This document shows, piece after piece, positions 8,155-11,100 of a stretch of 64,000 bases of DNA (position 1 is the stretch's first letter; every line of letters starts with the position of its first letter). A program made the position numbers and the translations under genes. The stretch spans positions 71,385,618 through 71,449,617 of the forward strand of contig CM049317.1 in assembly GCA_026874595.1 (NCBI GenBank), in the 5' to 3' direction. Source of the DNA: Sipunculus nudus. Lineage: Eukaryota; Annelida; Sipuncula; Golfingiida; Sipunculidae. A model generated the notes under the pieces. The model had not been told where the DNA came from, did not search any database, and saw nothing but the letters and a program-made list of their open reading frames with translations.

Positions 8155-11100
8155 TTAGTTCCTCTTCTCAATATTCAGCCATACTCCTTTCTTTGAGCGT
8201 AAGACCAGCTCCGGATATTTCACGGGTTCTTCGGACCCCGAGAAGCTTAGTTTAAAATTCTTCAGCAAGATGGCGCTGCATGCTTTCATCTCGTACATTG
8301 CAAAGTTCTGGCCAATGCAGTTTCTGCAATTCAAGAGGACCATTAGTATTTTTGTCAGGTGGAATGTAGAAATTTTTTTTCGGCATCGTTAACACCATAC
8401 AACAATAAAAATAATAAGAAAAGTTGTCAAAGACCACGTACAGACCTGCCAGTTTTTGTTATATTTGCAGATATGTCGCCTCGAGGAACGTGTGCCTCGG
8501 TTCGCTAACTCCATGTTTTGATCAAAGGTATGCTCTAGACAAAAAGTTGCCACTAATAACTATGAATGGCCTGTCTCTCAGCGAGATAATGATATTTTCT
8601 TCTCTAACAATGGAAAAGTGTTATTTAAATTAAAACGTACGATAATAAACTCCAAAATATAATGGTTCATTCCTTTGGTGTAACCTACCCTTCTACAATA
8701 CATTTTTTTTATAAATATCCGTAACGAACGTTTTGCTTAACAGATACTAATTGACAAGGTGAGAACAATTAAAATGGTCTAAAATGCAAATCAAATGATG
8801 CTTTATTCGAACAAAATGTAATAATCATAAAATACATATGAAAAGATAATTTAATATAATAAAAGATAATAAAATCATCAAGAAAAATTATAGAAATCAA
8901 TAAGAAATAAATCTTGGTATAAAGTTGTGAAATAACTAGATGTTTGCTAGGCCTATCGATCACGGGAATAATAACAGTAACAGTAGGGTGATACCTGGGG
9001 CCTGCGGAGAACGGAACAAAGGCATGGGGGGATCTGCCTTTGGAGTTCTCGGCCGTGAACCTAAGAGGGTCGTACTTCTCGGGGTCCTCCCATACATCAG
9101 GGTTGTGGTGCATGGCGTATATACCTATCATCACCCACATACCTGAAAATGACAAAATGTATCATACATGTCAACAGTATAGGTTATTTTGAAACTTTCA
9201 CAGAGCACATATATAATGTACTCTGTGAGACTTTCAAAATAATATATAATACTATATATAATATGGAACCCTTATATGTGCGCCGTGACACTCACCCCCT
9301 CTCCGAGGACGTTCTGTCCCCAGAACGCAGGGTTACCATCCCGGGAGTCACATCAGTGAACTAGGTGGAGGTAATGACATGATCCACAACTCCCGGGCCC
9401 CACGTTGGGCGCCAAATGTCACAGGGTGAGAAATGATTGGTGGGTCGATCGTGGAATCGAACCCGCACGGCATGCACAGGAGTCCGGAATTCTAACCGCT
9501 TCGCCAAAAAAGCAAGCTTCTTTGGCAAGAAAGTTGGAACCCTTATATGTGCACCTTATATGTGCCCGGGAGTTGTTGATCGTGTCATTACCTGATGTGA
9601 CCCCCGGGATAGTAACCCTGCGTTCTGGGGACAGAACGTCCTCGGAGAGGGGGTGAGTGTCACGGGGTGTGTGGGTTAGGTAAAATGAACTTAACTATAT
9701 TTTTCAGTACCAGAAGCCTGCCCTAAACAAAGCTTAACGACACTGTACAGCTGACCCTGACCCAAGTGAACTTAGTATAAACAAAGACCCCCACAACCGG
9801 GTTTTACAGCAACGGACAATTTTAGGCTACATCATCTGAAAAGTGCAGCACGCGCTGTGCATGTGGTACGAAACTAATTTGTAATGAAATGCCTAAAAAA
9901 TATCTTAATTTAGCTCATTCAACAAAACATTGAAATGCTCTGGTTAGCCATCAATCCTCACCTTCTGGGGCGGTCATTCCGTTTTTGAACGTGATGGATC
10001 TGGATATCTTCCTGGCTATGGATGGTACAGGCGGGTGCGTGCGAAGGCTCTCTTTGATACACAATGTCAAGTATTCGAACCGGGCCAGGTCGTCCCTAAA
10101 ATTCACATGAATTTAGTTACAGTAATTTCGCAAACACGCATAATGACTACATTTACTAGATCAAACATATCCTAATTAAACCATTTCCAACGTATCTAAC
10201 AGTAAAAAAATTGTGTATTCCCTTCCGATAACGTACACTTCACTCCGACTTTTATTTCTGTGAAAGAAATCTTTCAACTTGAGCTTCAGTGTATTCAAAA
10301 TTATACATGTATACTTGTATGAGCAAAATTATTTTGTTCCGTTGTTAAGAATTAATGGATTGTTAAGAATTACAAAGTAACGGAGTTATGTGTGTATCCC
10401 TGTTTTCCAATCAATAGTGTCAAAAGCGTCAGTATGACAAACCCAAACAGGACATGTTGTACATATTTAAACGGCGCAAAAGACAAATAAATCCTTTCCT
10501 CGCTCTTCGGGAAAAAAATATAATTTCATCGTTTTATAAGGAAACCTTAACACTGACACATTTTGTTGTCTATAGGCCTTATACATAAGATTACAATGTG
10601 CAACTCCGGTTAAACCTATAGAATTTCACCTTTGCTTACAAGAATGTTTCTGTTCTATTATAATTTACTTAACCAGAATAAAAGCCTGGGTTTTATATAC
10701 AAGATATTTTGTTTGCCATGTAATCATGTTTTCTCTCCAATTCATGTTAATTTCAACCCAACAATTATATCCAACTGCTCGTTTAATTTCCGGGATGTTC
10801 CATTAATCGAGGATCAACAGTATATGGTGGATAATAATCTATGCGGCTACTATTATATATAAGAATCCAACCATTCCACTTCGTCTCTGTCTCCTAGCAC
10901 CTGCATGATCTCCTGGTAACACTTCTCCTGATGTTCGGGGTGTGTTGCCATGTTGTACAAGAACCATGATAAACCTGTCCGGTAAATAAATCAGAAAAGT
11001 AAAGGAAAAATAAAAACCACTTTTATCATACTGAAGTAAATACATAATTTTACAGGTTTAATTATTATCCTGACTTCATATACATGTTCAACCGTACCTT

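Follow-up and report, generated by a model that had tools for sequence, protein, structure and literature searches.

A probable Helenus-type TRIM, degraded and rearranged into a foldback, in a cytochrome P450 intron

Positions 9264 to 9665 of the window, the whole 64-kb stretch of DNA, very probably hold one copy of a Helenus-type TRIM that has been degraded and rearranged (probability of roughly 0.85). A TRIM is an LTR retrotransposon with no room for genes, and the element lies within a cytochrome P450 intron. The name Helenus was given by Kojima in 2024 to TRIMs whose LTR contains a tRNA-like sequence (PMC10886601). LTR ends, a primer-binding site (PBS), a purine tract, the A and B boxes in one LTR, the head of a second LTR, and an inverted arm were all seen directly. 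Along the minus strand, their order is the inverted arm, an 11-nt junction, a near-complete 5' LTR, TT, the PBS, the internal part, and the 3' LTR head (Table 1). The first-pass annotation had proposed a possible TRIM, rearranged into a foldback, whose LTR contains a tRNA-like promoter for Pol III. This anatomy was recovered, but paired A/B boxes and a target site duplication (TSD) were not seen in this copy.

Table 1. Features of the element and of the surrounding intron, in window coordinates
Feature	Positions	Strand	Basis
Inverted arm (post-PBS internal sequence and 8 nt of LTR head, reversed)	9564..9665	-	Repeat finding and alignment
Foldback junction, 11 nt; short repeat of LTR sequence ACATATAAGGT ahead of the LTR proper	9553..9563	-	Repeat family D1
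5' LTR without about 9 nt of its head; terminus CTGTGACA	9417..9552	-	
TATAA, 37 to 41 nt upstream of the A box; composite LTR nt 15	9543..9547	-	
T6 run; final T is base 1 of the A box	9506..9511	-	Terminator role inferred
A box TGGCGAAGCGG	9496..9506	-	
B box GGTTCGATTCC; start-to-start distance to the A box 43 nt	9453..9463	-	
TT gap between LTR end and PBS	9416-9415	-	
PBS TGGCGCCCAACGTGGGGC, tRNA-Lys1,2 type	9397..9414	-	18/18 match
Internal part, 126 bp	9291..9416	-	
Polypurine tract GGAGAGGGGGTGAG (13/14 purines)	9291..9304	-	Sequence
3' LTR head, 27 nt, begins TGTCACGG at 9290; AT-rich sequence beyond	9264..9290	-	
Cytochrome P450 intron containing the element; gene and element in the same orientation	9143..9961	-	Exon stretches on each side match PF00067

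The initial 18 nt of the 5' LTR are identical to positions 9281 to 9264 of the 3' LTR head. When the 9-nt head of the 3' LTR is joined to the 5' LTR, a composite LTR of 145 bp is obtained, the ends of which form a 6-bp terminal inverted repeat (TGTCAC/GTGACA). An intact unit is thus reckoned at approximately 416 bp (145 + 126 + 145). The two LTRs are identical at 20 of 21 nt, which is their full comparable overlap. The 3' LTR breaks off after 27 nt, ahead of the A box, and the boxes are visible in the 5' LTR only. The LTR ending in GTGACA, the 2-nt gap behind it, and the purine tract directly abutting the start of a second LTR, all described beforehand, were found as claimed. An internal part was also present, but its length had been put at about 100 bp instead of the measured 126 bp.

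The arrangement of the priming sites is that of an LTR retrotransposon, with the PBS starting two bases past the LTR end and the purine tract adjoining the second LTR head. All 18 bases of the PBS are identical to the published tRNA-Lys1,2 form, an 18-nt sequence that carries the label Lys1,2 in one of the tables of PMC1084362, and the earlier assignment to this type is thereby borne out. With up to three mismatches allowed, the PBS was found once against 0.01 expected, and it was seen in 1 of 100 shuffles.

No other significant match to the element was detected in the 64-kb window by a sensitive search (next best E = 1.4). Exact-pattern scans of viral contigs, a collection from which records near the genome of the window may be excluded, gave 0 matches, an absence of little weight; the box pattern had 0 matches in genome contigs. 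The single genome-contig match of a 21-nt internal pattern was dismissed as chance: it covers 21 to 22 nt in a bacterial contig of 59% GC, and the remaining similarity is weak and scattered. By eye, no target duplication was seen in the 20 nt printed on either side of the element. Since both outer ends look cut short, no TSD could be displayed at this site, and the locus has the appearance of a truncated remnant.

The LTR had been said to contain an A box and an exact B box at tRNA spacing, and both are there. Their starts, at 9506 and 9463, are 43 nt apart; the usual spacing in tRNA is about 44 nt. The B box GGTTCGANTCC was found once against 0.02 expected, and 2 of 100 shuffles contained one. 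A strict A+B pattern had one match in the window and none in 100 dinucleotide shuffles, while a looser one also occurred once, against a shuffle mean of 0.17 (17 of 100 shuffles contain it). A third A+B pattern matched this block and a block starting at 26635, again with 0 of 100 shuffles. These counts are to be read with the fact that the A-box patterns with a shorter spacer were composed after the block had been seen; the initial, stricter 12-nt A-box consensus matched only three other sites and did not match at 9506. For comparison, the box A given in PMC10886601 includes TRGCY and YGG. The second tRNA-like block, at 26635-26577 (minus strand), combines a B box GGTTCGAACCC with an A-box-like stretch at a distance of 48 nt and is perhaps a SINE remnant.

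The boxes are present in the LTR block, but the tRNA fold is absent. ARAGORN at default settings found no tRNA gene anywhere in the window, and no Rfam tRNA match was obtained at E values up to 10 in either 1401 or 121 bases. Furthermore, the RNA fold of the block does not surpass that of shuffles (z = +0.40). Two of five pairs remain in the T stem and four of seven in the acceptor stem, and with offsets left free the D and anticodon stems reach at best 3/4 and 3/5 pairs, respectively. A tRNA gene was ruled out by these results, and the folds reported on both strands by relaxed ARAGORN were judged spurious.

That the internal part is also present in inverted form, giving a long hairpin, was confirmed for most of its length. 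Of the 102 columns in which the arm (9665-9564) aligns with the direct stretch (9398-9283), 98 are identical, and 14 nt of the direct arm are missing from the inverted one. Repeat finding returned the arm as two matches, of 74 nt at 97% and of 30 nt at 93%. Its direct counterpart comprises the internal part after the PBS and 8 nt of the LTR. The junction is sharp; it falls on LTR nt 10, next to a stretch of ACATATAAGG that was copied again. For the whole foldback stretch, the single-strand DNA fold has a z of -19, a value that reflects the inverted arms.

How the foldback arose may most simply be explained by a slipped 3' end. In such a course, the 3' end of an antisense strand, belonging either to a cDNA or to a broken chromosome end, would have slipped and folded back near LTR nt 10. 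The folded-back strand would then have copied the internal part anew, yielding the inverted arm. A slipped, self-copying 3' end would account for both the arm and the junction in one event. The main rival is that two opposed insertions, or one insertion nested in another, were later trimmed by deletions. We regard this as a substantial possibility, although still clearly on the short side of even: it agrees with the arms differing in 4 of 102 columns plus the 14-nt gap and with the truncated appearance of both outer ends, but it requires several independent deletions, and a junction inside the LTR next to an 11-nt re-copied stretch resembles a template slip. Autointegration was ruled out as the source, since by its mechanism the junction would be expected at the LTR terminus, and the observed junction lies away from it. 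We give almost no credence to a reading without kinship to LTR retrotransposons, be it as a DNA transposon of the foldback type or as a hairpin RNA gene under selection. Such a reading would suit the very stable fold, but the PBS, purine tract, and LTR head indicate an LTR element, and the outer ends are without a target duplication.

The boxes themselves could be interpreted in two other ways. The locus may be an ordinary Pol II TRIM, with transcription of the LTR driven from TATAA and the boxes either surviving as a relic or carried along silently. With this motif in the LTR, Pol II transcription is possible, and the degenerate tRNA fold also speaks for this reading. On the other side stand the exactness of the B box amid a decayed T stem and the lack of AATAAA and ATTAAA in the composite LTR (145 nt), each of which, coming from a single copy, speaks weakly for Pol III. 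We consider the ordinary Pol II TRIM unlikely, though it deserves more weight than a SINE that inserted into the LTR of an ordinary TRIM at this locus alone, which we hold to be very improbable. In its favor, PMC10886601 proposes that Helenus originated by SINE insertion, the window has the further tRNA-like block described above, and the 5-mer TTTCT (composite LTR nt 30 and 129) flanks the LTR block on both sides. But TTTCT is likely a chance occurrence, since it is one of ten repeated 5-mers in the composite LTR. No direct repeat of at least 7 nt is present there, and each of the two 6-nt repeats has one copy inside the block. Behind the block, in the 36 nt from the B box to the LTR end, no A-rich or simple-repeat tail was found. 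The lack of both a longer repeat and a tail argues against a recent SINE insertion. A block that ends independently had been named, for genome copies, as grounds for rejecting the TRIM reading; at this locus, neither a clear SINE tail nor a target duplication sets the block apart, and only the one 5-mer brackets it. The promoter may still descend from an ancient SINE, as put forward in PMC10886601.

For the Helenus-type TRIM, we infer a course of transcription, termination, and mobilization as follows. The A and B boxes of the 5' LTR would recruit Pol III, which starts approximately 10 to 20 nt ahead of an A box, and the transcript would cross the internal part and reach the 3' LTR. There, the T6 beside the A box may act as a terminator and thereby set a short R region. 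The same T6, sited in the 5' LTR, would face Pol III right after the start. Reverse transcriptase and integrase would be supplied by an autonomous LTR retrotransposon, presumably Gypsy-type by analogy with animal Helenus. tRNA-Lys would serve as primer at the PBS, with the purine tract priming the second strand.

The T6 is the sole run of at least four T in the composite LTR and the internal part. With no other T4 run, the first full terminator that a Pol III transcript would meet beyond its start region would be the T6 of the 3' LTR. Simple shuffling of the 55 nt upstream yields a run of at least five T no farther than 12 nt from the A box at a frequency of 0.0145. The expected frequency of a T4-free body is 0.51, i.e., about half the time, so it is the position of the T6 that has to carry the case for a terminator; this detail comes from one copy and was spotted post hoc. 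One could go further and suppose a Helenus family with an R of approximately 10 to 20 nt set by Pol III, in which, with R this short, first-strand transfer often fails and self-primed foldbacks like the present copy result. We consider this proposal improbable, and less so only than the two least favored alternatives above. An R of 18 bp, comparable to the proposed 10 to 20 nt, is reported for Cassandra. The position of the T6 next to the A box yields a testable forecast of where such an RNA starts and stops. If the forecast is true, the T6 would show how a Pol III transcript could gain the terminal repeats needed for LTR retrotransposition.

The ends of the P450 intron, 9961 and 9143, were inferred by eye from the GT and AG splice ends, and the gene is probably that of an animal. 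Adjoining the truncated 3' end of the element, at 9178-9248, there is a 33-nt inverted repeat (85%, 5-nt loop); miRNA-like Rfam matches at 9177-9249 were rejected, as they are far under the gathering scores. Elsewhere in the window, an ORF at 23272-23700 (minus strand) resembles a P450 N-terminus by eye but has no Pfam match at 0.001. A sequence of about 0.5 kb occurs twice in opposite orientation, at 12540-13052 and 39491-40004, with 85 to 92% identity. Near its second copy, an ORF at 40074-40364 (minus strand) is LINE endonuclease-like by eye, again with no Pfam match at 0.001. A LINE-like reverse transcriptase stretch (PF00078) is located at 35683-36078 on the plus strand, with neighboring ORFs at 35198-37272 and a reading frame that looks broken. 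In addition, there are repeat arrays at 57323-60153 and 51341-52498, with spacings of approximately 331 to 343 bp and 145 bp, respectively.

The closest likeness is to Helenus, for which the account in PMC10886601 gives a range of fungi, animals, and a plant, with six animal phyla. It lists 51 families in pteriomorphian bivalves, lengths of 311 to 1263 bp, and tRNA-Lys among the primers. The traits given there are a tRNA-like sequence in both LTRs, a 4-bp TSD in animals, and a PBS region in common with an autonomous Gypsy element; according to the same account, that Helenus has a working Pol III promoter is not validated by experiment. The locus shares the short LTR element, the A/B boxes in the LTR, the PBS, the purine tract, the Lys primer, and the length range. 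The tRNA-like A/B boxes are found within its 5' LTR, where ARAGORN and Rfam give no tRNA fold (tRNAscan-SE was used in PMC10886601). A PBS and a polypurine tract lie between the LTRs, and at 145 + 126 + 145 bp the unit has TRIM size without coding capacity for mobilization. It differs in that this copy forms a foldback, its 3' LTR is truncated, and no TSD was seen; the likeness drawn here is one of anatomy.

In the plant TRIM Cassandra, a Pol III promoter also lies within the LTR, together with a terminator of the kind that at the locus is only a candidate (PMC7215508 and PMC10886601). The Cassandra promoter is, however, of the 5S type, whereas the locus has tRNA-type boxes. The suggested animal parallel to Cassandra is supported in kind, but it is not new, as such elements have been published under the name Helenus from six animal phyla. 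As described in PMC6934838, biv-TRIM of bivalves is likewise a TRIM with a short internal part and a purine tract. Its repeats are 202 to 218 bp and its internal part is 77 to 80 bp, and a canonical PBS was not identified in that description; the locus, in contrast, has a 145-bp LTR, a 126-bp internal part, and an exact Lys PBS. tRNA-derived SINEs (SINE2) have A and B boxes near tRNA spacing too, but at the locus the boxes are within an LTR that is accompanied by LTR termini, a PBS, and a purine tract, without a tail. Since the Helenus class is in print, the locus is best regarded as a probable new copy of a published kind, perhaps one of a new family. It adds one probable member to the small set of LTR elements with a Pol III promoter (TRIMp3).
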